Assembly: GCF_014191255.1 (NCBI RefSeq)
Contig: NZ_JACHWH010000001.1
Span: forward strand, 558,001 to 622,000
Direction of reading: 5' to 3'
Length of the DNA stretch: 64,000 nt
DNA from: Amycolatopsis bartoniae
GTDB taxonomy: Bacteria > Actinomycetota > Actinomycetes > Mycobacteriales > Pseudonocardiaceae
The notes beneath the pieces are model-generated. The model did no database searches. It was not told where the DNA came from and worked only from the letters and a program-made list of their open reading frames with translations. Made by a program: the position numbers and the translations under genes. Below, one piece after another: positions 11,443 through 38,226 of this stretch (position 1 is the first letter of the stretch; each line of letters begins with the position of its first letter).

Positions 11443-11509
11443 GGACGGGTCTTTCGGGGGCAGGATGAGAAGTGCGACCCCCTCGTCCGTCGAGCAGAAA
11501 GACCCGTCC
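11443..11509 (+). repeat. Inverted repeat abutting the start of an IS481-like transposase fragment
   Basis: GGACGGGTCTTTC at 11443-11455 is the perfect reverse complement of 11497-11509, with a 41-base loop. The second arm ends immediately before the ATG at 11510. Confidence 0.65.
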
Positions 11510-12290: not shown

Positions 12291-12648
12291 TACAAACGCC
12301 GCGGCTACCCACTTACCTAACTGCGGTTGCAGTACTAGCCCGGTAGGTTCGGCGAAGGTGAATGTTGGTTTACTGGCCGACAGGTGGCCCTGAAGGCAAG
12401 CGGCAGAACTCCTGGTGCCCTCGGATGGGACAGGTATGGGAGCGAAGGGTGCCAGCTCTCGGCAAATGTAATCGGCAGTATCGGCGCGGCATCGGTAGAT
12501 TCCGGACGAACTCCGGGGGCAGGACCACGTCGCGCCGGGCGATGATCACTCTGTGGGCGTCAATCGCGAAGGTGTGAATGCCCTGGCCGTATGAGGGGAG
12601 GTGTCAAAAAGAAATAGATAACGTAGCTGTGCGAGACCGGCGAGAGGA
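12291..12648. other. Gene-free stretch after the IS cluster
   Basis: I see no coding frame, terminator or further IS sequence that I can support. It separates the IS junction from the 3' end of the beta-glucosidase gene. Confidence 0.4.
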
Positions 12649-15129: not shown

Positions 15130-15176
15130 GTGTGCCCTCCTCGTGAGGTCGTCGCGTACCAGTGGTTTCGTCTAGT

Positions 15177-15205
15177 AAAATAGCCGATTTGTGTGGTGCA
15201 ATCAA
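15177..15205 (-). promoter_or_regulatory. Candidate promoter of the beta-glucosidase gene
   Basis: On the minus strand TTGATT (15200-15205) and TATTTT (15177-15182) are separated by 17 bases. They lie about 50 bases before the ATG at 15129. Confidence 0.5.
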
Positions 15206-15398
15206 GGCTTGTGGTGCGCTGACCGGAGAGTGCCTGTCGGCGACCGACTTGGCTGGATCGTGTGGAATTCGCCCCTTTCCTGCCTCATCCTGGGGACAAC
15301 TATTCTTCGAAAGTCTCACTCTCTGATTCGACGGCGAGGTGGTCGTTGCCCATGCGTTGGTCAGTCGTGTCAGGGTCACGGGTTGTGGGGTGGTTTCG

Positions 15399-16661: not shown

Positions 16662-16671
16662 TTGTGCCTGA

Positions 16672-16715
16672 ATGCGTATCCAACCCCGGATTGCAACCCG
16701 GGGTTGGATACGCAT
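16672..16715. terminator. Bidirectional hairpin terminator
   Basis: Two perfect 18-base arms (16672-16689 and 16698-16715) surround an 8-base loop, between the convergent ends of the glycosyltransferase (16661) and the deacylase (16744). Confidence 0.75.
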
Positions 16716-16743
16716 CAGCGTTGTGGCAGACGGTGTCTTGGTC

Positions 16744-17703
16744 TCAGATGGGATCCGTGTCGTTCCCTCTACTGGTGGCCAAACCTGAAGAATACACGGT
16801 TTCACCGGCTTGTATTCGGGCTTGTCGGCGGAGGAACATGATTACTTCGTCTGTGGGTGCGTAAAACTCTTCAACAAGATCCCCGTTGTAGTCAAAGATT
16901 TGCCCTATTTTATCTCCGTGTTTGACGAAGGATCCCGCTTCTGTTGAGGCTACGAAGAAACCGCTATGGGTAGCCTTGGTTGCCTGATCCAAATCGCCTT
17001 GCCCGCTTATCACATATTGTGGCGTTGTCGAATTTGAGTAGCGGTAAGAACTTGGAAGCATTTCTAGATCAGCCATAACCGATAGTACGCCAGTCACGTA
17101 GGCGTCGAGGTGATCTCTCTTGATCGCTCCTCCGCCGCCACATTCGGCATAAATGGCAGGTATGCCCGATGAAGCCGCAATCGTGATGCTTCGACCTTCA
17201 GGGGTCTTGTCGTGCTTCCACACCAGCGGCGTGCCGAAAGCAATAGCAGCACGGTGGCAAGCCTTCGCTGCGTCAGGAGTGTCGATGTAGCCGCAAAACA
17301 ATGGCATGCAGTACCGCAATCCGGCGGAGTGCAGATCAATTAGGAGATCAGCTCCCTTGATTACCTTCTCGGTGATTGCGGTTGCAATAGCGGCTGTCGG
17401 CCCGGAGCTTCCGTGGCCTGGAAAACTGCGTGCCAGGTCTCCTCCGTCCAATGGATTTCTGCGGCTGCAGGCGGACCAGGCAATTGCATTCGCCGGCGCG
17501 ACGGCTTTTACTACGCCCACAAAATCTATGTCGGCAAGACGTGTCAACAATTGCCGGACAGCTAGGACCCCCTCCTCCTCGTCCCCGTGAACGCCGCCGA
17601 GTATCGCGAGTGTTGGTCCCGCTTGAGTGGCACCTCGGAGGATGGACATGACTGCCCCGCCGGGCAGTGGAACGTGTTCATGCTGGTCATGCGTTGACAA
17701 CAA
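16744..17703 (-). CDS. Succinylglutamate desuccinylase/aspartoacylase-family deacylase
   Basis: This 319-residue zinc hydrolase of the AstE/AspA family (M14-like) is expected to remove an acyl group from the nitrogen of an amino acid or diamine derivative. Zinc ligands are visible as GGVHGDEEEG (His39, Glu42) and LLIDLHSAG (His125), with RSFPG as the substrate-binding Arg region. Family members include the ectoine-pathway deacetylase DoeB and aspartoacylase; the substrate here is unknown. The start is one of two adjacent TTG codons (17701-17703 or 17698-17700) after GAGGTGGAGC. At 24 G/C in 60 sampled bases it is the most A+T-rich gene seen and marks the right edge of the island. Confidence 0.85.
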   Translation of the reverse strand: MLSTHDQHEHVPLPGGAVMSILRGATQAGPTLAILGGVHGDEEEGVLAVRQLLTRLADIDFVGVVKAVAPANAIAWSACSRRNPLDGGDLARSFPGHGSSGPTAAIATAITEKVIKGADLLIDLHSAGLRYCMPLFCGYIDTPDAAKACHRAAIAFGTPLVWKHDKTPEGRSITIAASSGIPAIYAECGGGGAIKRDHLDAYVTGVLSVMADLEMLPSSYRYSNSTTPQYVISGQGDLDQATKATHSGFFVASTEAGSFVKHGDKIGQIFDYNGDLVEEFYAPTDEVIMFLRRQARIQAGETVYSSGLATSRGNDTDPI

Positions 17704-17889
17704 GCTCCACCTCTTTACAACTACCTGCTGTAACGATGGTTCGACCGGGCTTACCCGTCGAATGGTGGCTGGTCAACTAGGAGAACATGCGCCCTAGGAT
17801 AGTAGTCGCCGTAGAACCACCCTAAAACGGATACCTCTCCGGCTTACTGGTCGCGTGCTCCGGCGTGCCTGAACCCCCCCACTACACCC

Positions 17890-18708
17890 CTAGGACACAC
17901 CCACCGGGTTCGTGGCGATGCCCGACGCGACCTCGATCAACGTCTTCGCCGCTCGCTTGGCGTCCTGCAGTGAGAAGCGGGATGACGGGCCGCTGATGCT
18001 GATCGCCACCGGGAGGTGGGTGCCCAGCAGCGGGGCGGCGACACAGCGGCCGTCGTCCTCGTTTTCGCGGTCGTCGAGGGCGTAGCCCTGCTTGCGGACC
18101 TTCGCCAGCTCGTCGAAGTAGCTGTCGATGGCCGTGATCGTGTTGCCCGTGCGCTTCACCAGGCCCGTCTGGTCCAGCAGGTCCCGCACGCGCTCCTCCG
18201 GCAGCTGCGCCGCGATCGCCTTGCCCAGCGCCGTGCAGTGGATCGGGTCGCGGTCGCCCCTCGACGCGGCCAGGCGCACGCCCCGCCGGCTCTCCACGAT
18301 GTCGATGTAGATCACGTGATCACCGTCGAGCAGGCCCAGGTTCGCGGTCTCCCCGAACTCGTCGCGCAGGCGCTCCAGCGACGGCCGCGCCCGCTCGCGC
18401 AGGATCTCCAGGTGCCGTGACTGCATGCCGACGAACCCCAGCCCCAGCCGGAAGAGCCCGCCCTCCTCGTCGCGCTCCACGTAGCGGTGGTTCTCCAGCG
18501 TCCACAGGTAGCGGAACGCCGACGACTTCGGCAGCCCAGTGGTCTGGGCCACCTCGTTGAGGGTGATCCCGTCGACCGATTCCTGCAGCAGGTTCAAGAT
18601 CAGGCAAACACGCTCGACAGCGCGAACCGAATAGTCGCGCTCCTCCTCGGAACCCTCGGTGTCCTGAGGAGTCATGTCATCGGGATCTTGCTTCCTGCGG
18701 CGGCTCAC
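17890..18708 (-). CDS. IclR-family transcriptional regulator
   Basis: This 272-residue regulator has a winged-helix N-terminus (about residues 28-80: SVRAVERVCLILNLLQESVD, LNEVAQTTGLPKSSAFRYLW) and the IclR effector-binding domain behind it (GLLDGDHVIYIDIVESRRG, PIHCTALGKAIAAQLPEERV, GRCVAAPLLG). The GTG at 18706-18708 is preceded by GAGGTAGACC. It is divergent from the eight-gene catabolic operon at 18.97-27.07 kb, and a palindrome typical of IclR-family sites lies just after that operon's promoter. It is therefore the likely local regulator, probably a repressor lifted by a pathway intermediate. Normal high-G+C composition starts here. Confidence 0.9.
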   Translation of the reverse strand: MSRRRKQDPDDMTPQDTEGSEEERDYSVRAVERVCLILNLLQESVDGITLNEVAQTTGLPKSSAFRYLWTLENHRYVERDEEGGLFRLGLGFVGMQSRHLEILRERARPSLERLRDEFGETANLGLLDGDHVIYIDIVESRRGVRLAASRGDRDPIHCTALGKAIAAQLPEERVRDLLDQTGLVKRTGNTITAIDSYFDELAKVRKQGYALDDRENEDDGRCVAAPLLGTHLPVAISISGPSSRFSLQDAKRAAKTLIEVASGIATNPVGVS

Positions 18709-18863
18709 GGTCTACCTCATTTCGAGAGTTAACGTTTGCGTTTCAGATGCTACCGCCCCTGGAACCGGCATGTCAGGGGGCCAGAACGCATTCCGTCAAT
18801 GCCCAGTGACACTTTTGCGCCGAGTGTCATCCTCTGGCGTTCGGCGGTGCGGGGTACGGCCCC

Positions 18864-18892
18864 TTGACGCCTCCTGCCCGTCACCGTAGCTT
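18864..18892 (+). promoter_or_regulatory. Promoter of the eight-gene operon
   Basis: TTGACG (18864-18869), a 17-base spacer and TAGCTT (18887-18892) predict a start near 18899, upstream of the palindrome at 18915 and the first ATG at 18975. Confidence 0.6.
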
Positions 18893-18914
18893 GAAGCTAT
18901 CTGGCAGATCTGCT

Positions 18915-18931
18915 GTTTCATTAGGTGAAAC
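18915..18931. promoter_or_regulatory. Palindromic operator, GTTTCA-N5-TGAAAC
   Basis: The perfect 6-base arms are separated by TTAGG. It sits about 16 to 32 bases downstream of the predicted transcription start, a place where a bound repressor would block RNA polymerase. The same TTTCA-N5-TGAAA arrangement recurs at 27105-27119. Confidence 0.6.
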
Positions 18932-18974
18932 CCGACTGGGCTCGGGCACCGACGCGCGTCTGAAGGGATCGTCG

Positions 18975-20255
18975 ATGGACAACGCAGGGCCGCAGCTGCT
19001 CACCCAGTCCGAAGAGCTGAGGCGCCGAGCGCTCGTGCGGACACCGGGCGGAGTGCACTCCAACGTCCGGCTCAGCGGCTCACAGGAATTCATCAAGTGC
19101 GCGCAGGGTGCTTGGCTCTACGGCGTCGACGGCCGGGACTACGTCGACTACCTGCTCGGCCAGGGCCCCAACTTCCTCGGCCACGCCCCGAAACACATCA
19201 TCGACGCCGTCTTCGAGGCGTGCCGCGACGGTGTGGTCTTCGGCGGGCAGCACGAGCTGGAGGTGCGGGCGTCGGAGCTCGTGTGCCAGGCCGTCGGCTG
19301 GGCGGACATGATCCGCTTCAGCATGACGGGCACCGAGGCGGTGCAGGCCGCGCTGCGGCTCGCGCGCGCCGCCACCGGCCGCACCAAGCTGATCCGGTTC
19401 GAGGGGCACTACCACGGCTGGCTGGACAACGTGCTGCTCGGCCAGCGCGACGGCCAGTGGGGCATCGCCAGCGCCGGTCAGCTGGAGAGCCACCTGGCCG
19501 ACTCGATCATCCTGCCGTGGAACGACCTGCGCAGCGTCGAAGAGGCGCTGGACCGGCACGGGCACGAGGTCGCCGCCGTGATCATGGAGCCGGTCATGAT
19601 CAACGCCGGGGTGATCGAACCCCTGCCCGGCTACCTGCAGGGCGTGCGCGAACTCGCCACGCGGCACGGCGCCGTGCTCATCTTCGACGAGGTGATCGCC
19701 GGCTTCCGGCTGGGCCTCGACGGTGGCGCCGGGCGCTACGGCGTGACCCCGGACCTGGCCACCTACGGCAAGGCGATCGCGGGCGGCTTCCCCGTCGCGG
19801 CGCTGGTCGGCAACGCCGACCTGATGAACCGCTTCGGCACGGGCGAGGTGAACCACTCGGGCACGTTCAACAGCTCGGTGATGGCGACCGCGGCCGTCAC
19901 CGCCACCCTCACCAGCCTCCTCGAAAACCCGCCGTACGAGCGGATCGCCGCGCACGGCACCGCGCTCATGGCCGGGTTGCGCGACATCGGCACCGAGCGC
20001 GGGCTGCCACTGCGCGTTTCCGGTCTGCCGCAGGCGTTCCACGTCTCCTTCGGTGACGCGGAGGTGACGGACTACCGAACGCTGCAACAACTCGACCTGG
20101 CTCGTTACGAATCGCTCTCGCGCGTGCTCGTCGACAACGGGATCTGGGTCACCGGTCGCGGCGTCTGGTACGTCTCGGCGGCGCACGGCCAGCGCGAGCT
20201 GGAAGCGGTGCTGTCCCGGTTCGACAAGGCCGTCAGCGAATGGGTGGCGCAGTGA
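18975..20255 (+). CDS. Class-III aminotransferase, glutamate-1-semialdehyde-aminomutase-like
   Basis: This 426-residue fold-I PLP enzyme should transfer an amino group, most likely from an omega- or beta-amino compound, to a keto acid. It shows TPGGVHSNVR, YVDYLLGQGPNFLGHAPKHI, FSMTGTEAVQAALRLARA, EGHYHGW, the cofactor Asp238 in LIFDEVIAGFR and the PLP Lys266 in TYGKAIAGGFP. Cofactor features place it with GSA-AT-like transaminases, but the operon lacks heme genes, so a catabolic role is more likely. The ATG at 18975 follows GAAGGGATCGTCG; an upstream in-frame TTG at 18864 is the promoter -35 itself and is rejected. Its stop overlaps the RidA start by 4 bases. Confidence 0.85.
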   Translation: MDNAGPQLLTQSEELRRRALVRTPGGVHSNVRLSGSQEFIKCAQGAWLYGVDGRDYVDYLLGQGPNFLGHAPKHIIDAVFEACRDGVVFGGQHELEVRASELVCQAVGWADMIRFSMTGTEAVQAALRLARAATGRTKLIRFEGHYHGWLDNVLLGQRDGQWGIASAGQLESHLADSIILPWNDLRSVEEALDRHGHEVAAVIMEPVMINAGVIEPLPGYLQGVRELATRHGAVLIFDEVIAGFRLGLDGGAGRYGVTPDLATYGKAIAGGFPVAALVGNADLMNRFGTGEVNHSGTFNSSVMATAAVTATLTSLLENPPYERIAAHGTALMAGLRDIGTERGLPLRVSGLPQAFHVSFGDAEVTDYRTLQQLDLARYESLSRVLVDNGIWVTGRGVWYVSAAHGQRELEAVLSRFDKAVSEWVAQ

Positions 20256-27241: not shown

Positions 27242-28210
27242 ATGTCCTTACCGCTGCACGGACACCGACTGTTCCGCTCCCACGACCTCGACCACGTCCG
27301 GGAGGAGATGAGCCGCGTCCTGTGCCCCCACGACGTCTTCACGCTCGGGCGCGACGCGCGCATCGACGCGGAGATGAACTCCCTGGCACTCGACGACGTG
27401 GTGCTCAACTACGTGCACTACGGTGCCCCCGTCGCCGTCGACCCCGGCTGCACCGGCGACTTCATCGCGCTGCAGGTGCCGCTCACCGGGTTCGCCGACG
27501 TCCGCTGCGGTTGCGAGTCCCTGGCGTCCACACCGGACATGATGCTCGTCAGCAGGCACAACGAACCGCTGCAGATGCGGCTGTCGGAGAACGCCCGGCT
27601 GCTGCTGACCAAGGTGTCGTGGCCCTTCCTGCTGGGCACGCTCAGCGACCTGCTGGGCGGCTACGTGCCATGGCCGCTGCGGTTCGAACTGGGACTGGAT
27701 GTCCGGGGCGAGCGGCAACGCCGGTGGTTCGAGTTCCTGACCGTGTACCTGCGGCGCGCGAGCAGGCCGGACCTCGGGCTGCGCACGCGGCTGTGGGGGC
27801 CGTACTTCCAGGAACGCCTCGCCGTCGGCCTGCTGCGCGTGCAACCCAACAGCTACAGCGCGATCCTCGACGCCCGGCCGCTGCCCGCGCCGTCGCGCAC
27901 CCTGCACCGCGCGATCGACATCCTGGAGACCACGCCCGAGCGGGCGCACACCGGGTGCTCGCTCGCGCGCGAGGTCGACATCAGCACGCGCGCGCTCGAC
28001 GAAGCCTTCCGCAGCAGGCTGGCCACCTCGATCCCCGAGTACCTCTACCACGTCCGGATGCGCCGCGCGTACCTGTCGCTGCGCTGGTCGGAGCCCGGCG
28101 ACGTGACGGTGGCCGGTGTCGCCGAGCGCTGGGGGTTCTCCGAGCCGGGCTTCAGCAAGTGGTACTACCGCGAGTTCGGCGAGACGCCGCAGGAAACGCT
28201 CTACCACTGA
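27242..28210 (+). CDS. AraC-family regulator (AraC_binding_2 type), copy 1
   Basis: This 322-residue regulator has an AraC_binding_2 sensor domain (VREEMSRVLCPHDV, YVHYGAPVAVDPG, SRHNEPLQMRLSENARLLLT) and a C-terminal double HTH (TGCSLAREVDISTRALDEAF, AERWGFSEPGFSKWYYREFG). The ATG at 27242 follows AGGTGCAGGG; the open frame extends upstream to 27152, but that part overlaps the promoter region. It is a paralogue of the protein at 35142, sharing the Cys-Pro-His motif and the sensor layout. It lies directly before a second AraC gene and the DSD1-type enzyme, so it may control these, while its own promoter carries the IclR-like palindrome. Confidence 0.88.
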   Translation: MSLPLHGHRLFRSHDLDHVREEMSRVLCPHDVFTLGRDARIDAEMNSLALDDVVLNYVHYGAPVAVDPGCTGDFIALQVPLTGFADVRCGCESLASTPDMMLVSRHNEPLQMRLSENARLLLTKVSWPFLLGTLSDLLGGYVPWPLRFELGLDVRGERQRRWFEFLTVYLRRASRPDLGLRTRLWGPYFQERLAVGLLRVQPNSYSAILDARPLPAPSRTLHRAIDILETTPERAHTGCSLAREVDISTRALDEAFRSRLATSIPEYLYHVRMRRAYLSLRWSEPGDVTVAGVAERWGFSEPGFSKWYYREFGETPQETLYH

Positions 28211-28221
28211 CGATTGCACCG

Positions 28222-28250
28222 TTGACGGCGAGTGGGCCACTGTCTATGTT
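28222..28250 (+). promoter_or_regulatory. Promoter of the second AraC gene
   Basis: TTGACG (28222-28227), a 17-base spacer and TATGTT (28245-28250) predict a start at about 28256, which is itself an ATG in frame with the gene, so a leaderless transcript is possible. Confidence 0.55.
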
Positions 28251-28291
28251 CGTTAATGAAACAGCCGTTCCGCGTGGAGAGACTAACTGAC

Positions 28292-29194
28292 ATGACAGAA
28301 GAGGAGCGCGACGCGGCGAGAGTGCTCGGGCCCCATCTCGTCCGCGTCGCCAGGGGAACGACGCCCCGGCTGCGCGTGGCCGCGGTGGCCACGCCGCGGA
28401 TGGTCGTCGGCACCGTCGCCTACGGCTGCGAGGTGGCCATCGATCTCCAAGCACCACAAGAGGACTACTTCGTCGTGACCGTCCTTTCCGGACGGTTGGT
28501 GTGCCGCCACGGCGACCGCTGGCTGGAGCTGCGCCGGGGCGAGGTGCTCGCCGCGTCGCCGGTGCAGCTGCGCGCGCTGCGCTGCTCGCCCGGCTGCCTG
28601 TTCCGGATCATCCGGATCCGGCCGGACCTCCTGCTCGCCCGGCTGGCGCCGCTGCTGGCGTTCCCACCGGAGGGGCTGGTCTCGTTCCGTCCACTGGTGC
28701 GCACGCTCCGGTCGGCCTCGGACCCGCTCGTCCGCAGCGCGCAGCGCCTGCTCATGGGGCGCCCGGACGACCGGCTGACCCGTTACGTCGAAGAGGTGCT
28801 GGTCGATTGGCTCGTCCGCGCCCAGCCGCACCAGTTCTCCTCCCGCTTCCGGCGGGAGGCGCGGGACGTCGCCGAGCTGGTCGCCTTCGTCAGGGTGCTC
28901 ATGGACTCCGACCCGTTCGGCGGCCGGTCGATGAGCCACTACGCGCAGCTCGCGGGCGTGTCGCTGGCCGAGCTGACCGCCGCCTTCCAGGAGGAGGGCT
29001 GCCTGCCGCACGAGTACCTGCGCGCGGTGCGGCTCGACTGCGTCCAGCGGCTGCTGGCGCGGGCCGGGCAACCGTCGGTGCGGGCGGCCGCCGAGCAGTG
29101 CGGCTTCCGCGACAACGCGTTGTTCAACAAGTGGTACTACCAGCGGTTCGGGGAGTGGCCGTGGCAGACGGCCCGCCGCGGCAGGGCGAGGTGA
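28292..29194 (+). CDS. AraC-family regulator, copy 2 (divergent sensor domain)
   Basis: The N-terminus of this regulator is a cupin-like AraC sensor (VAYGCEVAIDLQAPQEDYFV, VLSGRLVCRHGDRWLELRRG, RFSSRFRREA-like Arg-rich linker). The C-terminus is the HTH (YAQLAGVSLAELTAAFQEEG, AEQCGFRDNALFNKWYYQRF). Two starts are possible: ATG 28292 with GGAGAG ten bases before it (300 residues, chosen), or ATG 28256, which coincides with the predicted transcription start and would add 12 residues without a leader. It overlaps the DSD1-type gene by 4 bases, so it is co-translated with that enzyme. Confidence 0.85.
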   Translation: MTEEERDAARVLGPHLVRVARGTTPRLRVAAVATPRMVVGTVAYGCEVAIDLQAPQEDYFVVTVLSGRLVCRHGDRWLELRRGEVLAASPVQLRALRCSPGCLFRIIRIRPDLLLARLAPLLAFPPEGLVSFRPLVRTLRSASDPLVRSAQRLLMGRPDDRLTRYVEEVLVDWLVRAQPHQFSSRFRREARDVAELVAFVRVLMDSDPFGGRSMSHYAQLAGVSLAELTAAFQEEGCLPHEYLRAVRLDCVQRLLARAGQPSVRAAAEQCGFRDNALFNKWYYQRFGEWPWQTARRGRAR

Positions 29195-30426
29195 CGGTGC
29201 TCGACGTTCCCGAGGTCACGGTTTCCGCTCGGCACAAGGGTTTTCCGTTCGCCGCGCTCGGCCGTCTCGCCACCGACGTGTCCGGCACGCTCGACGACTT
29301 CCTCACGCCGATCCTGGTGTTGAAGAACGCGCCGCTCCGGCACAACCTCGCGACGATGGCCCGGTTCTGCGCCGAGCACGCCCTGTCGCTCGCGCCGCAC
29401 GTGAAGACCACGATGTCACCGGAGATCGCGTCGGCCCAGCTCGAACACGGCGTGTGGGCGCTGACACTCGCGACGCCGAGCCAGGTCCGGACGTTCCGGG
29501 AACTGGGCGCGCAACGCGTCGTGCTCGCCAACGAGCTGGTCGACCCGCAGGCGATCGCGTGGCTCGGCGCCGAGCTGACCGAGAACGCGGACTTCACCTG
29601 CTACTGCTACGTCGATTCGTTCGACGGTATCGACGTACTGGAAAAGGAACTGCCACCCGGCGGCCGGCCACTGCCGGTGTTGCTGGAGCTGGGCGTCGAA
29701 GGCGGCCGCGCGGGGGTGCGCGACCTCGGCCTGCTGCCGTCACTCGCCGAACGAGTGCGGAGTTCGGCCGTGCTGGAACTGGCCGGCGTCGGTGGTTTCG
29801 AGGGGATCATCGCGGGCGGCCTGAACGCCGGTCTGCTGGCCGACGTGCGGGAGTACCTGCGGCGGCTGCGCGACGTGGCCGACGAACTACTGGCCGGCTT
29901 CGAGGGCGAGTTCGTCGTCACCGTGGGCGGCAGCGCGTTTCCGGAGCTGGTGGCCGAGGAGCTGGGCCCGCGCTGGCAGCGGAACCGTCCGGTACGGGTG
30001 GTGCTGCGCAGCGGATGTTACGTGACCCACGATTCCTTGGCGTACCAGGACTTCCGGCGGTTGATGAGCACCGAGTACCGCGCCCTGCCGCTACGGCCGA
30101 GCCTGGAGCTGTGGGGCCGCGTGCTGTCCTGCCCGGAGCCGGGGCTGGCGATCCTCGACTTCGGCAAGCGCGACACCGGGGTGGATGCGGGATTTCCCGT
30201 GCCACTGCACCGGATCCGGCGCGACGGGAGCGAGGTCGAGCCGGCGCCGCCGGGCGAGCTGACCGCGTTGAACGACCAGCACGCCTACTTCCGCGGCGAG
30301 CTGACGGTGGGGGACCGGGTCGGCTTCGGGATCTCGCACCCGTGCACGACGTTCGACAAGTGGCGGCTGTTCCCCGCCGTCGACGACGCGTACCACGTGT
30401 GCGGAATGGTACAGACCTTGTTCTGA
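29191..30426 (+). CDS. D-threonine-aldolase/D-serine-dehydratase-like (DSD1) PLP enzyme
   Basis: This 411-residue fold-III PLP protein has an alanine-racemase-like N-terminal barrel with the PLP Lys72 in APHVKTTMSPEIASAQ, followed by ALTLATPSQVRTFRELGAQR and GVEGGRAGVRDL. The C-terminal D-ser_dehydrat domain carries the zinc-binding His and Cys in GISHPCTTFDKW. Relatives cleave or dehydrate D-3-hydroxy-amino acids. The GTG at 29191 overlaps the AraC stop (GTGA), coupling enzyme and regulator. It is convergent with the gene at 30438, only 11 bases away. A D-amino-acid substrate is likely, the exact one unknown. Confidence 0.87.
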   Translation: MTVLDVPEVTVSARHKGFPFAALGRLATDVSGTLDDFLTPILVLKNAPLRHNLATMARFCAEHALSLAPHVKTTMSPEIASAQLEHGVWALTLATPSQVRTFRELGAQRVVLANELVDPQAIAWLGAELTENADFTCYCYVDSFDGIDVLEKELPPGGRPLPVLLELGVEGGRAGVRDLGLLPSLAERVRSSAVLELAGVGGFEGIIAGGLNAGLLADVREYLRRLRDVADELLAGFEGEFVVTVGGSAFPELVAEELGPRWQRNRPVRVVLRSGCYVTHDSLAYQDFRRLMSTEYRALPLRPSLELWGRVLSCPEPGLAILDFGKRDTGVDAGFPVPLHRIRRDGSEVEPAPPGELTALNDQHAYFRGELTVGDRVGFGISHPCTTFDKWRLFPAVDDAYHVCGMVQTLF

Positions 30427-30437
30427 GGTTGCCGAAA

Positions 30438-31091
30438 CTATCGCTCGCCGTGGTCGGATTCGGGCCACCACTGGTCGAGGATGTCCATGCGGGAGTCGAG
30501 CAGTGCCGGGTCGCGCAGGTCGACGATGTGCACCCCGTTCCAGCGGCGGAAACCGATGCGCTCCAGCATCGCACCCGCGCGGACGCTCGCCAGCTCCGCC
30601 GCCACCCGGTCGCCAGGGCACGGGAAGTCCAGTGGTGACACGCGGCTCGCGGCGAGCCGGGCGGTCGGGGCGAGGATGCGCAGCGCGCCGGCGATCAGCG
30701 CCGGGCCGAGTGCGTGCCCCCGCCACGCCTCCACCAGCTCGACCCGCCGGAGGATGACCATCCGCGGCGCGCCGGGCGTCATCGTCTTGTCCAGCTCGGG
30801 GTGTAGCTTGCCCTCGTCCGGGTCGATCACGGTCTCGGCGATGAACTCCAGCGCCCACTCGCCGAGCACCACGGAGTCGAGCAGGTTGCGTTCCTTGGTG
30901 AGGTCGGCGATCACCAGCGAGATGTCGCCGACGTGACGCAGCTCGTCCGGGCACACGTCGAGCGGTGAGATGTCGGCCGAAGCGTGCCACTGCTCCGGCA
31001 GCTCGTCCTCGTCGTCGGTCTGCCACCAGAACCGGCGGTGGGACAACGTGAGCTCGATCGAGAGCGGGTTCGCGGGAAGATCAGGGACCAT
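30438..31091 (-). CDS. Uncharacterised protein with GNAT-like segment
   Basis: This 217-residue protein has no clear family. The middle part, RVELVEAWRGHALGPALIAG followed by ALRILAPTARLA, resembles the acetyl-CoA-binding turn of GNAT acetyltransferases (Arg/Gln-x-x-Gly-x-Gly/Ala), and MLERIGFRRWNGVHIVD resembles the usual C-terminal strand of that fold. The N-terminal half (SHRRFWWQTDDEDELPEQWH) is acidic and unassigned. It has no signal peptide or membrane segment. It is convergent with the DSD1 gene. A GNAT-type acyltransferase is my best guess. Confidence 0.6.
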   Translation of the reverse strand: MVPDLPANPLSIELTLSHRRFWWQTDDEDELPEQWHASADISPLDVCPDELRHVGDISLVIADLTKERNLLDSVVLGEWALEFIAETVIDPDEGKLHPELDKTMTPGAPRMVILRRVELVEAWRGHALGPALIAGALRILAPTARLAASRVSPLDFPCPGDRVAAELASVRAGAMLERIGFRRWNGVHIVDLRDPALLDSRMDILDQWWPESDHGER

Positions 31092-31378
31092 CGTCGTTCA
31101 CCGAACCCCTGCCGGAGCCGTCAGTGTGTTCACCTGGTCGCCGATTCCGGTCACCCGGAACGTCTTAATCTCATTCCGGCCGCCAGTCAACGGGCACGCT
31201 GCGTCAGCCATCACCGTCACAATACCGACCGAACGTGAAAGAAAGCTACCGCCGATGGATTGATGTTGCGCCGAGCAGCCGTTTTGAAAATGATCTCGGC
31301 TTCCCGGCAGCGAACGGCGGTTCGCCCTGGTAACCGCGGACAGGGGCAAATCCACCCCAATGGGTGACGACGGCTTTT

Positions 31379-31711
31379 TCACTGGGGCCGTGCCCTCCGG
31401 TCGGCTATGTAAGTTCCTTTCGATCTGATTGTCACGACCAACCCCCGATAACGGAGCAGGCGCGTGGCGTGCCGGGCCGTGCCCAGGGACACACCGTATT
31501 CCTGGGCCAGCCGCCGCTCGGACGGCAGCGGCGTGTTCGGCTCCAATTCCCCCGCCTCGATTCGCGCGGCGAGGTGCTCGGCCATCATTTCGTAGACGTA
31601 TCCCGGGGTGTCGCCCGGGTCGAAGTCAGGTACGACCACGCCTGCGACGGTAGAAGGGCCTTGAACAGGCGAAATAGCGCGGGTGAGCCGTTCTGCGGTA
31701 GGGCGCTGCAT
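31379..31711 (-). CDS. Small GntR-family winged-helix protein
   Basis: This 110-residue protein is almost only a GntR DNA-binding domain: YVYEMMAEHLAARIEAGELE, TPLPSERRLAQEYGVSLGTA and VVTIRSKGTYIADR. No effector domain follows, so it may need a partner or act as a simple DNA-binding switch. I start at ATG 31709-31711, after AGGGTGG; in-frame GTG codons just upstream are alternatives. It lies alone between the GNAT-like gene and the EAL-GGDEF gene, all on the minus strand. Nothing in the 287 bases upstream of 31379 is assignable. Confidence 0.75.
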   Translation of the reverse strand: MQRPTAERLTRAISPVQGPSTVAGVVVPDFDPGDTPGYVYEMMAEHLAARIEAGELEPNTPLPSERRLAQEYGVSLGTARHATRLLRYRGLVVTIRSKGTYIADRRARPQ

Positions 31712-31765
31712 TACGCGCACCACCCTGGCTGTGGAGTGGTGCCGGTTTTCGGGAAGGGGGTCACT

Positions 31766-33439
31766 CTAGCGGGTTACAAAATCGGCCCCGGGCTCGCCGC
31801 GCAGAATCTCCACGCGGTCGGCAGCGGGCCAGCTGTTGACCCAGCTCGACCCGCGCACGTGCTTCGCCGCCTTCTTCAGCGGCGCCAGCATCCGCGAAAC
31901 CTCTTGGTACGACTGGGCTCTTTCACCAGCGCACACGATCGTCGCGAGGGAGACGGTGACGGGCCTGCCGTCCGCGGACCACGCGACATCCAGGAGCGCG
32001 TCGGCGACGGGCGTTATCTCGTCGAGGTCGCAGGCGACGAGGAAGTCGTCACCACCGACGTGGCTCACCACGACACCCGGCAGTTTCGTGTGCAGATCGG
32101 ACAGTGCGCGTCCGATGGCGCGGATCAGCTCGTCGCCCGCCGCGAAACCGGCGGTGTCGTTGACGCGCTTGAAGGAGTCGATGTCGAGCCACCCGACGAC
32201 GGTGGGGTGGCTCGCCGCGAGCCGCCGGTCCACCTCGCGGGCCACGGCGTCGCTGCCCGGCAGCCGGGTCAGGGGGTTGAGCGCGGCGGCCTCTTCGATC
32301 TTCACCTCGGCGACGCCGCGCACCAGTTCGTGCACCAGCACCACGCCGACGCACCGGCCTTCGGCGTCCACCACGATCACGTCGTCACCGCTGCGGTCGA
32401 GCTCGGCGTCGGTGACGAGGTCCAGCAGTTCGAGCGCGCCCGCGCCGGAGCGGATGGTGCGTGGCGGGTCCGCGAGCCGCGCGGCGGGGCGGTTCGCGTG
32501 CAGCGCGTGCCCGAACGGGCCGGTCAGGTCGAGCAGGAAGCGGGACCGGTCGACCGACCAGGCCGGCCTGCCTTCGGCGTCCACGCCCACGATCCCCGTC
32601 GGCGCGTCCTGGTCGAGCAGCACCTTGCGGACCTGGTCGCACGTCGCGTCGGCGGGCAGGGTCGCGGGGGCGCGGAGGAAGTCGTCGACGCGCGGGTTCG
32701 TGGCCGTGCGCGCGGCGGGTGCCGGGGGCACCGAGGCGAGACCCGCGGCCGGGACGGTGCCTTCGCGGGCGGGCGCGAACAGGTTGCCCTGCACCAGCCG
32801 GATGCCGAGCCGCCGGACGGTCTCCAGCTGCGCCTCGGTCTCGACCCCCGTCGCGACCAGCCGGACGTCGGCGCGCGCGGCGAAGTGGCACAGCGCTTCG
32901 ACGAGCGCGACCGTGGGCTGGTCGTCCGGCAGCCGGTGCAGGGTGGTGCGGTCGAGCTTCATCAGGTGCGGGCGGGCCTCGGCGAGGAGGTTGAGCGGCA
33001 GGTCGCCGTGGCCGAGGTTGTCGAAGGCGATGCGGAAGCCCAGCTCGGTGAACCGGCGGACGCCGGCGAGCAGCGCCTTGGCGGGGACGCCGTGGAAGGG
33101 GGAGCCGACCTCCAGCACGATCTCCCGCGTGCGGCGGCCGGTGGTGCCGAGCGCTTCGAGCAACGGATCGAGCACCAGCTGCGGGGCCGCGGCGGAGGCG
33201 GCCGTGAGGTTGACGTGCAGCGGCAGGAGGGTCTCGTGGCTCGGCTCCGCCAGCAACGCGCGCGCAGCCAGCGCGGCGTCCACCGCGACGAGGCGTCCCC
33301 GGCGCAGCGCGTGCCGGAGCAGGTCCTGCACCTTTCCCTTCGCGGGCCGGGCGAGGGCCTCCACTCCGATGACGCCCCCGGTGTGCAGGTTGTACACCGG
33401 CTGGAAGGCGAAGCTGACCTGCTCGACGGCGACTTCCAC
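31766..33439 (-). CDS. EAL-CBS-GGDEF signalling protein with altered catalytic motifs
   Basis: This 557-residue cytoplasmic protein has three parts. An N-terminal EAL domain (about 1-235) keeps GVEALARP (Glu27-Leu29), LHVNLTA, IVLEVG, LMKLDR and the ATGVET Glu, but the usual Asp-Asp pair reads FDNLG, so one metal ligand is Asn. A CBS-like pair follows (about 245-395: DFLRAPATLPADATCDQVRK, DVIVVDAEGRCVGVVLVHEL). A C-terminal GGDEF-like domain (about 405-555) has NPLTRLPGSDAV, DIDSFKRVNDTAGFAAGDEL and SHVGGDDF in place of GG(D/E)EF, with no RxxD inhibitory site before it. It has no membrane segments. It may bind rather than make or degrade cyclic di-GMP. Confidence 0.85.
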   Translation of the reverse strand: MEVAVEQVSFAFQPVYNLHTGGVIGVEALARPAKGKVQDLLRHALRRGRLVAVDAALAARALLAEPSHETLLPLHVNLTAASAAAPQLVLDPLLEALGTTGRRTREIVLEVGSPFHGVPAKALLAGVRRFTELGFRIAFDNLGHGDLPLNLLAEARPHLMKLDRTTLHRLPDDQPTVALVEALCHFAARADVRLVATGVETEAQLETVRRLGIRLVQGNLFAPAREGTVPAAGLASVPPAPAARTATNPRVDDFLRAPATLPADATCDQVRKVLLDQDAPTGIVGVDAEGRPAWSVDRSRFLLDLTGPFGHALHANRPAARLADPPRTIRSGAGALELLDLVTDAELDRSGDDVIVVDAEGRCVGVVLVHELVRGVAEVKIEEAAALNPLTRLPGSDAVAREVDRRLAASHPTVVGWLDIDSFKRVNDTAGFAAGDELIRAIGRALSDLHTKLPGVVVSHVGGDDFLVACDLDEITPVADALLDVAWSADGRPVTVSLATIVCAGERAQSYQEVSRMLAPLKKAAKHVRGSSWVNSWPAADRVEILRGEPGADFVTR

Positions 33440-33608
33440 GATTGCGATCCTCGCTCTTCCCGCTGTGGCTGACTTGATGGTTGCACGGCGAAGCGGCCCT
33501 GCCTGCCTCTGTGCGCCCCATCACGCGCCGGGTGAACTGGCCCCTACCTTCCGCCGGGACGGGCGGCGACGCTGGAGGGGTTGTGCTTGCCCCGCGGGAG
33601 GAGAACCG

Positions 33609-34976
33609 ATGCCGTCCTTCATGGAGCCGTTCCGCATCAAGGCCGTGGAACCGATCCCGTTCCCCACCGCGGACGAGCGCCGGGAGGCGCTGGCCGCCGC
33701 CGGGTACAACCTGTTCCGCGTGCCCGCCCGGCGGATCACGATCGACCTGCTGACCGACTCCGGCACGGCGGCGATGTCGGCGGCGCAGTGGTCGGCGCTG
33801 CTGTCGGGTGACGAGTCCTACGCGGGGGCGCGCTCGTTCGAACGGTTTGAAGGCGTGGTGCGCGATCTCACCGGGTTCTCCGAGGTGCTGCCGGTGCACC
33901 AGGGACGGGCTGCGGAACGGATCCTGCTCGGAAACGTACTCAGGCTCGGTGACATCTCCGTGAGCAACACCCATTTCGACAGCACCAGGGCGAGCGTCGA
34001 GGCGGCCGGGGCGGAGGCCGTCGACCTGCCGGTGCCCGCTTACGAAGGCGTGGCGAACCCGTTCGGCGGCGACCTCGACCTCGACGCGCTCGCCGAGCTG
34101 CTCACCGGCCGGTCGGGCGGCCGCATCCGGTGCGTGGTGCTGACGGTGACGAACAACGCGAACGGCGGGCAGCCGGTGTCGCTGCTCAACATCGCCGGCG
34201 CGCGCAAGCTGTGCGACGAGCACGGGATCCCGCTGTTCCTCGACGCCTCGCGGTTCGCCGAGAACGCGTACCTCATCACCGAGCGCGAAGCGGGTTACGC
34301 GGACTCCGCGCCTCGGGAGATCGCGCAGACGATGTTCTCCCTCGCGGACGGGTGCTGGGCCAGCCTGAAGAAGGACGGCATGGCGAACATCGGCGGCCTG
34401 ATCGCCTTGCGTGACAAGGAACTGGCGGCCCACTGCGCCGAACAGGTCATCGCGGTCGAGGGCTTCCCTACTTACGGTGGTCTAGCGGGGCGCGATCTGG
34501 ACGCGCTGGCCCAGGGACTGCTCGAAGTCACCGACCCGGACTACCTGCGCTACCGGGCCGAGACCGCCCGCTGGTTCGGGGAGCAGCTGCGGCTGGCCGG
34601 GCTGCCCGTGCTGCAACCCACGGGTTGCCACGCGGTCTACGTCGACGCCGGCCTGCTCCTCGACCACATCCCGCCGCAGCAGCTGCCCGCCACGGCGTTC
34701 GCGAACGAGCTGTACCTGGCCGGGGCAGTGCGTGTGTGCGAGCTGGGCACCCTCGTGTTCGGCAGGCGTTCGCCCGACGGCGGACCGGACATCCCCGCGC
34801 CGCGTGAGCTGGTCCGCTTCGCCCTGCCGAGGCGCGTCTACACCGCGAGCCACCTGGAGTACGTCGTCGACACGGCGGAGGAGGTCCGGTCGAAGGCGGC
34901 CGAGTTGCACGGCTACCGCATCGTGACGCAGGGCGGGGCGCTGCGGCAGTTCACCGCGGGTCTCCAGCCGGTTTAA
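33609..34976 (+). CDS. Tryptophanase/tyrosine phenol-lyase-like beta-eliminating lyase
   Basis: This 455-residue fold-I PLP enzyme of the tryptophanase family would cleave tryptophan, tyrosine or a relative to an aromatic product, pyruvate and ammonia. It shows YNLFRVPARRITIDLLTDSG, AMSAAQWSALLSGDESYAGA, VLPVHQGRAAERIL, TVTNNANGGQPVS, LFLDASRFAENAYL (Asp212) and the PLP Lys254/255 in WASLKKDGMANIGG. GGGAGGAGAACC precedes the ATG at 33609. It is followed by an AraC regulator, an XRE regulator and a B12-type radical SAM enzyme on the same strand. Whether it acts in catabolism or supplies a building block for that enzyme is open. Confidence 0.88.
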   Translation: MPSFMEPFRIKAVEPIPFPTADERREALAAAGYNLFRVPARRITIDLLTDSGTAAMSAAQWSALLSGDESYAGARSFERFEGVVRDLTGFSEVLPVHQGRAAERILLGNVLRLGDISVSNTHFDSTRASVEAAGAEAVDLPVPAYEGVANPFGGDLDLDALAELLTGRSGGRIRCVVLTVTNNANGGQPVSLLNIAGARKLCDEHGIPLFLDASRFAENAYLITEREAGYADSAPREIAQTMFSLADGCWASLKKDGMANIGGLIALRDKELAAHCAEQVIAVEGFPTYGGLAGRDLDALAQGLLEVTDPDYLRYRAETARWFGEQLRLAGLPVLQPTGCHAVYVDAGLLLDHIPPQQLPATAFANELYLAGAVRVCELGTLVFGRRSPDGGPDIPAPRELVRFALPRRVYTASHLEYVVDTAEEVRSKAAELHGYRIVTQGGALRQFTAGLQPV

Positions 34977-35076
34977 ATCGCAGCTGCCCGGATTCGTCCG
35001 CGCGCGGCGTGCAACTTGCAGTCAGCAAACTCCACCCGTTTGGCCGGTACTTCTTTCACCGCAAAGGGCCGACAGT

Positions 35077-35145
35077 ATGACCCTGGAGGTGTGTGGGAGT
35101 CGACCTCGCCAAGACCCAGATCGACAAGACTGCCCGGGACAATGA
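35077..35145 (+). CDS. Possible 22-residue upstream leader peptide
   Basis: ATG at 35077, with AAAGGG about eight bases upstream, opens a 22-codon frame (begins MTLEVCGSRP, ends DCPGQ). Its TGA (35143-35145) overlaps the ATG of the AraC gene at 35142 in an ATGA junction. This layout would couple translation of the regulator to the leader. It is short and contains two Cys; no relative is recognised. It may be chance. Confidence 0.3.
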   Translation: MTLEVCGSRPRQDPDRQDCPGQ

Positions 35146-36134
35146 CAGAGCTACCTCTTGAGAAATACAAAGTTTTCGAATCCACCGACGTGGACGAGAC
35201 CCGTGACCAGGTGGAGAAGATCTTCTGTCCGCACCGGATGGACGTCGTCGGACCGAATCCGGAGCTGAACGCCCGTATGCACTGCCGTCGTATGCGCAAT
35301 ATAGCGGTGACGTACGTGTCCTACGGCTGGGACGTGCGCGTGAATCCCGGGCACCTGGAAAACTTTTTCGCCATTCTCGCGCCGACTGCGGGAAGGGGTA
35401 CGTTCCAGTCGGGTTTCGAACAGGTACAGGCATCGCCCGAGCGCATCGCGGTCGCGTCACCGACGGAGCCACTGCACATGCGGCTGTCCAACGACTGCGG
35501 CCAGCTGGTCATCCGGGTCGAGCGGGCCGCGGTGGAGGCGCGGCTGTCCGAGATGATCGACGGCGCCCTGCGCGAGCCCATCCGCTTCCAGCTCGGCATG
35601 GACGTCACCGCGGGTTACGCGCGCAGCTGGTTCGACCAGCTCAGCTGCGGTGTCAAGGACCTCGGCAGGCCCGAGTCCCTGCTCGCGCACCCGCTCGCGA
35701 TCGAGCAGTTCGAGCAGAACGTCATCACCGGGCTGCTGCTCGCCCAGCCGCACAACTACACCGCGATGCTCAACGGCGACGACCGCCCGGTGCCTTCGCG
35801 GCTGCTCGGCATCGCGGTGGACCTCATGGAGGGGCACCCGGAATGGGCGCACACGCCGTCGAGCCTGGCCCGGCAGGCCGGGGTCAGCGTGCGCGCGCTG
35901 CAGAAGGCGTTTCGCGAACAGCTCGACAGCTCGCCCAGCGAGTACCTGCGGGGCGTACGCCTGCAGCGGGTGCACGACGAGCTGTGCGCGGCGCAGGCCG
36001 ACGTCACCACGGTCGGCGAGATCGCGAGCAAGTGGGGAATGGCCCACCACGGCCGGTTCGCCGCCGTCTACCGGGAGAGATTCGGGGAGTCGCCCAAGCA
36101 GACGCTCAGTCGGCAGCATGCGCGAAGGGGATGA
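35142..36134 (+). CDS. AraC-family regulator (AraC_binding_2 type), copy 3
   Basis: This 330-residue paralogue of the 27242 protein has sensor-domain pieces ETRDQVEKIFCPHRMDVVGP, YVSYGWDVRVNPGHLENFF and VASPTEPLHMRLSNDCGQLV that line up with that protein. The C-terminal HTH is SLARQAGVSVRALQKAFREQ and ASKWGMAHHGRFAAVYRERF. The start at 35142 overlaps the possible leader frame; the frame is open to 35016, but those residues do not look like protein. It lies between the tryptophanase-like and radical SAM genes on the same strand, so these are its likely targets. Confidence 0.87.
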   Translation: MTELPLEKYKVFESTDVDETRDQVEKIFCPHRMDVVGPNPELNARMHCRRMRNIAVTYVSYGWDVRVNPGHLENFFAILAPTAGRGTFQSGFEQVQASPERIAVASPTEPLHMRLSNDCGQLVIRVERAAVEARLSEMIDGALREPIRFQLGMDVTAGYARSWFDQLSCGVKDLGRPESLLAHPLAIEQFEQNVITGLLLAQPHNYTAMLNGDDRPVPSRLLGIAVDLMEGHPEWAHTPSSLARQAGVSVRALQKAFREQLDSSPSEYLRGVRLQRVHDELCAAQADVTTVGEIASKWGMAHHGRFAAVYRERFGESPKQTLSRQHARRG

Positions 36135-36161
36135 GAGTGTTCGTGGAACGGATCGCCTGTC

Positions 36162-36500
36162 GTGACCACCTTGGCTAACGTCAAGCCCATGTTGACCCGC
36201 GAGACCGCGGGATCCCGGCTCAGGGCCGGCGACGGCCTTCCGATCGGACGACTGATCCGGTCGGTGCGCCGCGAACGTGGGCTCACCCAGTACGACCTCG
36301 CCGACGCTCTCGCTTCCGCGTCCGGGAACAGCAGCCTCGGCCGGGACGAGGTTTCCCGTTGGGAGCGCGGGAAGAGAGTGCCCGGTCCCTACTGGCAGAG
36401 CTGGCTCAGCCGCGTCCTCGGCATCGCCCCGGAACGGCTGCGCTCGTCGGCCCGGCTGGCCAGGGAACTGAGGTGGCGGCAAGTGGAACACGCCCCCTGA
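36162..36500 (+). CDS. XRE-family helix-turn-helix regulator
   Basis: This 112-residue HTH_3-type protein reads IGRLIRSVRRERGLTQYDLA, then DALASASGNSSLGRDEVSRW and ERGKRVPGPYWQSWLSRVLG, the classic Cro/C1 fold. The GTG at 36162 is used here; ATG 36189 is an alternative. It follows the AraC gene by 27 bases and precedes the radical SAM gene, with a terminator-like hairpin in between. It may fine-tune expression of the radical SAM enzyme. Confidence 0.8.
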   Translation: MTTLANVKPMLTRETAGSRLRAGDGLPIGRLIRSVRRERGLTQYDLADALASASGNSSLGRDEVSRWERGKRVPGPYWQSWLSRVLGIAPERLRSSARLARELRWRQVEHAP

Positions 36501-36523
36501 TTTTCGTCCGGCTCCCGGGCGCA

Positions 36524-36556
36524 CCCTCCCCAGCGGGGAAGGGAATTGGCTGTTTT
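36524..36556 (+). terminator. Terminator-like hairpin before the radical SAM gene
   Basis: CCCTCCCC (36524-36531) can pair with GGGGAAGGG (36535-36543, one bulge). A run of five T follows at 36552-36556, only 18 bases before the next ATG. It could act as an attenuator or a weak terminator. Confidence 0.35.
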
Positions 36557-36573
36557 TCCGGGAGTGGGAGTAA

Positions 36574-38226
36574 ATGGGTAAGGCACTGGTGACCCTGGTC
36601 AATCCGAATCTGGTCCATCCGCCGATCACGCCGTACGCGCTCGACATTCTGACGACGTCGCTGGAAATGGACGGGTTCGATGTCGAGGTGGTGGACCTGA
36701 CGTTCCACCGGGACGCGTGGCGCGACGTGTTGCGGGAGTACTTCGTCGGCCGCGAACCGCTGCTGGTCGGCGTGACCGTGCGCAACACCGACACGATCTA
36801 CGCGCAGCAGCAGCGGGTGTTCCTTTCCGACCACAAGGCCATCATCGACGAGATCAAGGCCCTGACCAGCGCACCTGTCGTGGCGGGTGGGGTCGGGTTT
36901 TCCTCGATGCCGTTCGCGTTGACGGACTTCTTCGACATCCCGTTCGGGGTCAAGGGGCCGGGGGAGAACACCATCGTCCGACTGGCCGACGCGCTGCTGA
37001 CGGGGCAGTCGCCGGAATCGGTGCCCGGGCTGTTACTCAACCGCGGCGGCGGCCGGGTGGACCGGGTTCCCCAGGTGGTCGCGCAGCGCGGAAAACCCGT
37101 TTTCACGCCCTTGAACACCGTGACGAAATACACGCGGCGTTCCGGTGAGGCGTACAAGGTGGACAACCTTCAATATTACCGTGGCGGTGGTCTGGGCAAC
37201 ATTCTCACGAAGAACGGGTGCGCCTATTCGTGCGCGCATTGCGTGGAACCGGACGCGAAGGGTACGCACTTCACCCGCCGTTCCGTCGAGGCGGTCGTGG
37301 ACGAGATGGAGCTGTTGTGCGGGCAGGGCGTGTACGACCTGCACACCACCGACAGCGAGTTCAACCTCGCGATCGCCCACAGCAAAGCGGTGCTGCGCGA
37401 GGTGATCCGCCGCCGCGAGGACCCGGCGTCGTCGCTGCGGAACCTGCGGTTGTGGATCTACGCGCAGCCGACGCCGTTCGACGAGGAGTTGCTGGAACTG
37501 CTCGTGCAGGCGGGCTGCGCGGGTATCAACCTGGCGCCGGACCACGTCAGCGAGGACCTGCTCGACGACTGGAAGGTCACCGGCCGCGGCAGGCGCTACT
37601 ACTCCTTCGACGACGTGCGCCGGATTGTCGAACTGACGAAGCGCCACGACCTGCCGGTGATGGTGGAGGTCCTGCTCGGCATGCCGGGCGAGACACTCGA
37701 AACGATCACCGAGGCGGTGCGCGAGACGCTGGCGCTCGACGTCACGGTCGCCGGGTACAGCCTCGGCATCCGGGCCTTCCCCTACTCGCCGCTGGGCATC
37801 CAGCTGGCCCAGCAGTGCGACGGCAGGCAGACCCTGCCGGGGCTCCAGTCGGACACCGCGACGGAGCCGATCGTGCTCAAGCCCCGAGCACAGTGCGAGA
37901 ACATCGTGGAGTACGAGCGACAGTTCGTTTTCGACGCACACGGACGGTTCCGGCCGGTTTACTACCTGTCACCGCTGCTGCCCGAGGATCCCGCCACGCT
38001 GGCGTCGCCGAACGGCCGCTGGGAGCGGACCGTGCAGCTGCTGTGGGACCTGGTGCCGGAGTCGGAGTACCACCGCGTCATGCTGCCGACGCTCCCGGGC
38101 CTGACCGAGGACGACAACAACTACGCCGACAACCCGTTCCTGCTGAAGCTGATCCAGCTCGGCTACACCGGCGCGTTCTGGTCCCACTGGCCCCGCAGGC
38201 ACGAGATCATGCAGGGCGCCGCCTGA
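36574..38226 (+). CDS. B12-binding-domain radical SAM enzyme
   Basis: This 550-residue protein has an N-terminal cobalamin-binding-like domain (about residues 1-145: TLVNPNLVHPPITPYALDIL, GVTVRNTDTIYAQQQRVFLS, APVVAGGVGFSSMPFALTDF) and a radical SAM core. The 4Fe-4S motif is C216-x3-C220-x2-C223 in NGCAYSCAHCVEPDAKG. No DxHxxG motif for a His-ligated cobalamin is visible. The core continues with WIYAQPTPFDEELLELLVQA and VMVEVLLGMPGETLETITEA, and the C-terminal 100 residues are unassigned. GGGAGTGGGAG precedes the ATG. Such enzymes methylate unactivated carbons or rearrange rings, often in natural-product pathways. The substrate is unknown; the tryptophanase-like neighbour hints at an aromatic amino acid. 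Confidence 0.87.
   Translation: MGKALVTLVNPNLVHPPITPYALDILTTSLEMDGFDVEVVDLTFHRDAWRDVLREYFVGREPLLVGVTVRNTDTIYAQQQRVFLSDHKAIIDEIKALTSAPVVAGGVGFSSMPFALTDFFDIPFGVKGPGENTIVRLADALLTGQSPESVPGLLLNRGGGRVDRVPQVVAQRGKPVFTPLNTVTKYTRRSGEAYKVDNLQYYRGGGLGNILTKNGCAYSCAHCVEPDAKGTHFTRRSVEAVVDEMELLCGQGVYDLHTTDSEFNLAIAHSKAVLREVIRRREDPASSLRNLRLWIYAQPTPFDEELLELLVQAGCAGINLAPDHVSEDLLDDWKVTGRGRRYYSFDDVRRIVELTKRHDLPVMVEVLLGMPGETLETITEAVRETLALDVTVAGYSLGIRAFPYSPLGIQLAQQCDGRQTLPGLQSDTATEPIVLKPRAQCENIVEYERQFVFDAHGRFRPVYYLSPLLPEDPATLASPNGRWERTVQLLWDLVPESEYHRVMLPTLPGLTEDDNNYADNPFLLKLIQLGYTGAFWSHWPRRHEIMQGAA

Follow-up and report, generated by a model that had tools for sequence, protein, structure and literature searches.

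The closest described counterparts of the locus considered here are the thiostrepton pathway of Streptomyces laurentii, in which the cobalamin-binding radical S-adenosylmethionine (SAM) enzyme TsrM methylates tryptophan at C2, an established reaction; the tryptophanase TnaA (EC 4.1.99.1); and the type A indole prenyltransferase-tryptophanase clusters (IptA; 6-dimethylallylindole-3-carbaldehyde), where a tryptophan-modifying enzyme adjoins a tryptophanase. The locus lies in a 64,000-nucleotide stretch of the Amycolatopsis bartoniae genome (contig NZ_JACHWH010000001.1, positions 558,001 to 622,000, forward strand), hereafter the window, whose closest named relatives are Amycolatopsis species. 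It holds genes for a tryptophanase-type lyase, an AraC-family regulator, a small XRE regulator and a TsrM ortholog, all four on the same strand, and probably encodes a dedicated two-enzyme route from L-tryptophan to 2-methylindole, as judged from sequence. To modify tryptophan and then release the modified indole is a known logic: available excerpts of PMC3617294 describe a prenyltransferase-tryptophanase cluster that makes a prenylated indole aldehyde, with 6-prenylindole called a likely intermediate. What is new here is TsrM outside any peptide cluster. Compared with the IptA type, the window locus has C2 methylation by TsrM instead of prenylation, a lyase of another clade, and different neighbours and regulators; no DMATS-type prenyltransferase gene was found by Pfam among the 20 window proteins scanned (26430-46655). 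One study, as far as its accessible text goes, employs TsrM and TnaA in E. coli, each as a module of its own. The literature covered, a partial set without subscription papers or preprints, contained no report of a natural tsrM-tryptophanase pairing and no genetic route to 2-methylindole.

The radical SAM protein (550 aa, 36574-38226, + strand) scores 973.7 bits against TIGR04428, the equivalog model of tryptophan 2-C-methyltransferase (cut-off 500), and aligns along its whole length with the crystallised TsrM 6wte (E 2e-214), 321 of 545 aligned residues being identical. The [4Fe-4S] motif CX3CX2C is formed by C216, C220 and C223 (CAYSCAHC, 216-223) and a sequence check found no DxHxxG, both as stated in the initial annotation, whose suggestion of a TsrM-type enzyme fits the tryptophan chemistry and was an understatement, since the curated model makes this protein a TsrM ortholog. 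R70 and E262 correspond in the alignment to Arg69 and Glu273 of the 6wte enzyme, of which, according to the consulted parts of PMC8992657, the former keeps the lower face of the cobalt blocked and free of ligand and the latter is a ligand of the unique iron. The window enzyme thus shares with TsrM the equivalog family, the cluster motif and the two residues, and very probably methylates tryptophan. Unlike its thiostrepton counterpart, the window tsrM has no detected peptide or thiopeptide genes around it and is accompanied by the lyase and the AraC and XRE genes. YcaO/TfuA, dehydratase and precursor peptide families were not found by Pfam in the 20 proteins mentioned above, very short open reading frames not being searched; this agrees with the earlier remark that no precursor peptide or scaffold enzyme is visible, and a thiopeptide or other peptide cluster at this locus was rejected as far as Pfam shows.

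The PLP (pyridoxal phosphate)-dependent lyase (455 aa, 33609-34976, + strand) scores 214.9 bits against PF01212 (cut-off 27) and 568.7 against the tryptophanase subfamily model NF009709 (cut-off 285), and falls under the phenol-lyase equivalog cut-off (TIGR02618, 428.2 of 720.7). Five residues, listed in the available part of PMC5805759, separate tryptophanase (states tested: Asp137, Phe304, Val394, Ile396, His463) from tyrosine phenol-lyase (Thr124, Met288, Met379, Arg381, Phe448). In the alignment, the window lyase keeps the PLP lysine Lys270, Tyr74, Asp137 and Phe304, as TnaA does, and differs from TnaA in carrying Cys394, Leu396 and Gln463, which correspond to neither the tryptophanase nor the phenol-lyase state; Cys394 is also the commonest state among the ordinary actinomycete tryptophanases aligned. 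The initial annotation had named a plain tyrosine phenol-lyase with an unrelated neighbour as one of two findings that would speak against its proposal; none of the five phenol-lyase residues is present, and this identity is rejected on the pocket residues together with the model score. By these criteria the enzyme is of the tryptophanase type, not a tyrosine phenol-lyase, and probably cuts off the side chain.

In the proposed route, the TsrM ortholog would methylate the indole C2 of free tryptophan to give 2-methyl-L-tryptophan, from which the lyase would beta-eliminate the side chain to release 2-methylindole, pyruvate and ammonia. Such a product should cross membranes and be volatile, and a signalling or allelochemical role of 2-methylindole is plausible. 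Tryptophan chemistry fits the earlier proposal of aromatic amino acid processing towards a small soluble product, with the enzyme functions in both cases read from sequence. Methylation probably precedes cleavage, and the reverse order is unlikely because, in the accessible text of PMC8992657, indole itself is not methylated in S. laurentii extracts; the same source and PMC4632189, in the parts available, report that TsrM accepts many tryptophan analogues. The accumulation of 2-methyltryptophan in E. coli making TsrM, noted in excerpts of PMC8896826, fits a need for a specialised lyase, and low native tryptophanase could also explain it.

The linkage of the two genes was followed across genomes. 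In a genus-level search TsrM exceeded its cut-off in 14 of 19 genomes, with a fragment in one more, giving 17 TsrM loci outside the own genome, which we call same-genus loci, nine of them standing on Amycolatopsis contigs. An intact pair was present at 11 of the 17, with the lyase gene 5' of tsrM on the same strand and 1.6-1.9 kb between them, as in the window; at one locus, L128, both genes were shortened by the gene caller and tblastn covers both fully. Degraded forms were also seen: at L133 the lyase is intact and TsrM truncated, in L134 both genes are broken, and L127 has TsrM with AraC, XRE and a lyase remnant, the same genome holding at L258 an intact lyase of the linked type with AraC and XRE and no TsrM, so that here the pair is split over two places and both parts are kept. 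A lyase-tsrM pair was also present in Prauserella (L017).

Among the class sample, TsrM exceeded the cut-off in 16 of 394 genomes, the own genome plus 15 members of family f22, called here Jiangellaceae-type on the basis of two Phytoactinopolyspora contigs (those of L137 and L149, the same as L018 and L019). The lyase is present at all 15 full-length f22 loci (L135-L149), where the AraC and XRE homologs lie on the other strand, the former before the lyase gene and the latter between lyase and tsrM. A sixteenth f22 genome (G075, L150) retains only a C-terminal TsrM fragment, with no lyase within the preceding 10 kb and none above the cut-off in the genome. The lyase exceeded its cut-off in 16 of 16 TsrM genomes versus 41 of 394 overall (hypergeometric 8.7e-18, for observations that are not independent, 15 of the 16 belonging to one family). 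In family f21 (that of G225), called Streptomycetaceae-type from the identity of its L181 TsrM with 6wte and the Kitasatospora setae origin of the latter, TsrM exceeded the cut-off in 28 of 394 genomes. Two of these 28 loci, L206 and L207, have an amino-acid permease (assigned by Pfam in L206 and by clustering in L207), lyase and tsrM, the last two overlapping by 4 nt (GTGA, as called); AraC and XRE homologs are absent from the stretch. A third, L202, has a prenyltransferase-type lyase 5.7 kb from tsrM, and the other 25 have no lyase within the 16-20 kb stretch. In the phylum sample, TsrM exceeded the cut-off in one of 396 genomes, the own genome.

The linkage of lyase and tsrM therefore exceeds chance, as the pair is found not only in Amycolatopsis but again in Prauserella and in Jiangellaceae-type and Streptomycetaceae-type genomes; conserved linkage was what the initial annotation had made its proposal depend on. 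The co-occurrence of all four genes, which it also put forward, stands for the lyase-tsrM pair in several genera and fails for AraC and XRE in the two Streptomycetaceae-type pairs: both regulators accompany the intact pair at all 11 same-genus loci and all 15 Jiangellaceae-type loci, as well as in Prauserella and in the window itself.

In a tree of 71 lyases, all 31 linked lyases form one clade (Shimodaira-Hasegawa-like approximate likelihood ratio test, SH-aLRT, 96), whose sister comprises 16 lyases, all 16 of them beside a DMATS-type prenyltransferase gene. The evidence for that gene is clustering in 13 of 13 loci plus L202, L259 and L260, and the DMATS label stems from the one annotated member, L202 (PF11991, 38.3 bits, cut-off 25; TIGR03429, 131.7, under the cut-off of 163.85), and the similarity of the others to it. 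A 55-row tree omitting near-copies, two long references and two fragments supported the linked clade at 100/95 (bootstrap/SH-aLRT) and the prenyltransferase clade at 100/100. At 35 alignment columns a residue is present in ≥90% of the linked lyases and ≤10% of 22 ordinary tryptophanases, one of these columns being filled in only two linked rows. Trp265, Ala266, Leu268, Trp340 and Cys357 (E. coli numbering) are among the residues that all 31 linked lyases share; the first three lie shortly before the PLP lysine, and Ala266 and Leu268 are mostly common to the prenyltransferase-linked lyases, which Trp265, Trp340 and Cys357 are not.

Lyase and TsrM distances over 30 loci agree (Mantel r 0.83, none of 999 permutations as high), which fits joint inheritance and would equally follow from shared species history. 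In the TsrM tree, lyase-paired genes fall into three separate parts, with an unsure root due to a very distant outgroup. More speculatively, the pair may be a self-standing volatile methylindole signal pathway with its private operator and the ancestral setting of TsrM, later recruited into thiopeptide and other large clusters; this reading fits because pairing occurs in three parts of the TsrM tree and the two proteins diverge in parallel.

A candidate operator of 14 nt, AACTGGCCCCTACC, is located upstream of the lyase gene (33535-33548, + strand), and is the sole window match at ≤1 mismatch (0.21 expected by shuffling). Among eight genomes searched for the exact motif AANTGGCCCCTNCC, the own one (7.76 Mb) and six others have a single match, always just 5' of the linked lyase gene; the eighth, G404, has no exact match, the L126 site having one change, and the reversed pattern gives 0 to 3 matches per genome. 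With a AAnTGGCCCCTnCC matrix, 23 of 28 loci score >6 upstream of the lyase and 18 of 28 upstream of tsrM, a level passed by 1.9% of shuffled regions; all 15 Jiangellaceae-type loci score >10 upstream of tsrM, and 14 of these 15 score >12 upstream of the lyase. These score counts are biased towards the motif, as its seed was chosen by eye among the linked loci, on which the matrix was also trained; for this reason the whole-genome exact search is the stronger test. The lyase starts of L119-L121 were called too early, which lowers the motif count, and sites are seen at L119 and L120. At threshold 11, additional copies precede one gene at L130, which is a second-TsrM locus, and an IclR-like gene (named from sequence) in three f22 loci, and no site >11 was found in the two Streptomycetaceae-type pairs without AraC or XRE homologs.

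The two adjoining regulators of the window are an AndR-like AraC-family protein (35142-36134, + strand; PF14525 136.9 bits, cut-off 27; PF12833 66.5, cut-off 33.6) and a small XRE/HTH_31 protein of 112 aa (36162-36500, + strand; PF13560 31.5 bits, cut-off 27). The four-gene set of the initial annotation is thus present, with all family scores above curated cut-offs. The motif is likely linked to these neighbouring regulators, and the XRE protein, the AraC protein or both may act at the AAnTGGCCCCTnCC operator upstream of the lyase gene; in Jiangellaceae-type genomes they may do so upstream of tsrM too. A scan for sigma-70 promoters and terminators found none.

Several observations weigh against the two-enzyme route. 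The window lyase is under both TnaA equivalog cut-offs (TIGR02617, 391.8 of 825.8; NF053783, 438.1 of 750), which together with its separate clade sets it apart from TnaA. His463 is replaced by Gln in 14 of 14 Amycolatopsis and Prauserella linked lyases, the window included, which could mean changed or weakened indole chemistry; as a general mark of function this replacement was dropped, being found in none of 15 Jiangellaceae-type and neither of two Streptomycetaceae-type linked lyases. A lyase structure model built from six sequences (mean predicted local distance difference test score, pLDDT, 61.4) was too poor to place the signature residues. TsrM also occurs without a linked-clade lyase beside it in Kutzneria (L020), in 26 of 28 Streptomycetaceae-type loci and in second copies in three same-genus genomes (L130-L132). 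Upstream of the lyase, L125, L128 and L129 have a weak motif or none (score <7); the score before the window's own tsrM is 0.8, and no site >11 was found in L258, L131 and L132 despite their AraC and XRE homologs. Finally, no report of 2-methylindole from these bacteria was found at the level of literature listings, the search not being made by genus name.

Among the alternatives, the one that survives best, tentatively entertained, is that 2-methylindole is only an intermediate which genes elsewhere oxidise or conjugate, a scheme compatible with the proposed route up to the lyase step. It is favoured by the conservation of some neighbour genes within the genus and by the prenyltransferase-tryptophanase cluster, the outcome of which is an indole-3-carbaldehyde in the excerpts of PMC3617294. 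However, at the clustering level used, the pair loci of the same genus and those of the Jiangellaceae-type and Streptomycetaceae-type genomes had no third gene family in common, and the exact operator pattern is present in the own genome only at the lyase-tsrM locus.

It is unlikely that the two enzymes represent separate uses of tryptophan, the lyase as an ordinary tryptophanase giving indole and TsrM supplying 2-methyltryptophan for another product. The linked lyases group away from the ordinary tryptophanases of actinomycetes, with lyases accompanied by another type of tryptophan-modifying enzyme as their sister clade, the two genes overlap in two loci and the motif is shared, whereas the tryptophanase state of the lyase at Asp137 and Phe304, and the service of TsrM in other clusters elsewhere, would suit such a division. 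Still less probable is that 2-methyltryptophan, a tryptophan antimetabolite, is the useful product and the lyase clears its excess: the two genes do stay together and three genomes have a second TsrM without lyase, but no ligase, nonribosomal peptide synthetase or RiPP (ribosomally synthesised and post-translationally modified peptide) gene is among the 20 proteins scanned (26430-46655). A lyase running synthetically, by condensation of an indole, pyruvate and ammonia or by exchange of the beta-substituent, is very improbable, for although tryptophanase is reversible (PMC6826157, in the part available), this direction would be redundant because TsrM already gives the methylated amino acid from tryptophan. 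The route to 2-methylindole thus remains our preferred reading of the locus.

Upstream of the lyase gene, the window (27242-33439) has two further AraC genes, a D-serine-dehydratase-like gene, a 217-aa protein without family, a GntR gene and an EAL/GGDEF gene. All 11 intact same-genus loci have the EAL/GGDEF, GntR and 217-aa genes 5' of the lyase, and eight of the 11 have the D-serine-dehydratase-like gene there; the first three were dropped as pathway members, not being found before the lyase in other lineages. Farther away, positions 4001-18000 have a guanine-plus-cytosine fraction of 0.55-0.58 in six of seven 2-kb bins versus about 0.67-0.73 rightward, and few clear coding frames by the gene caller; this is perhaps mobile or foreign DNA.

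Other TsrM settings differ from that of the window. The 6wte enzyme, called KsTsrM and presumably from Kitasatospora setae, is 100% identical over 559 residues to the TsrM of L181 (9021-10748), and its own setting is a different many-gene cluster without the lyase. Conserved neighbours there (5195-19688) include methionyl-tRNA-synthetase-like, DAO-type oxidoreductase, MFS transporter, two ATP-grasp ligase, acyl-CoA-dehydrogenase-like, LuxR, cupin, berberine-bridge FAD and DDAH-like genes, an arrangement found around TsrM in 23 of 28 Streptomycetaceae-type loci and partly in Kutzneria L020. The second TsrM copies of L130, L131 and L132 have AraC and XRE homologs, to which L131 adds two KASIII-like genes and enoyl-CoA hydratase, SDR, thioesterase, FMN dehydrogenase and MFS efflux genes; these loci are a candidate for another 2-methyltryptophan cluster. 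In L204 and L205 TsrM adjoins a TfuA-like gene, a P450 and an AMP-binding gene (Pfam on L204 only), perhaps a thiopeptide-like cluster. Sister-clade lyases also occur in 13 of the 19 genus-search genomes (L209-L221, L259-L261), with a DMATS-type gene beside 13 of 13 and a conserved ATP-binding gene beside 11, a probable prenylindole cluster.

If the proposed route is correct, TsrM, a model for non-radical chemistry in a radical SAM fold, would gain a function beyond peptide antibiotics, and genes for the formation of 2-methylindole would be predicted. The linked lyase clade and its sister clade each travel with a type of tryptophan-modifying enzyme, so that the indole derivative set free could be predicted from the adjacent gene.

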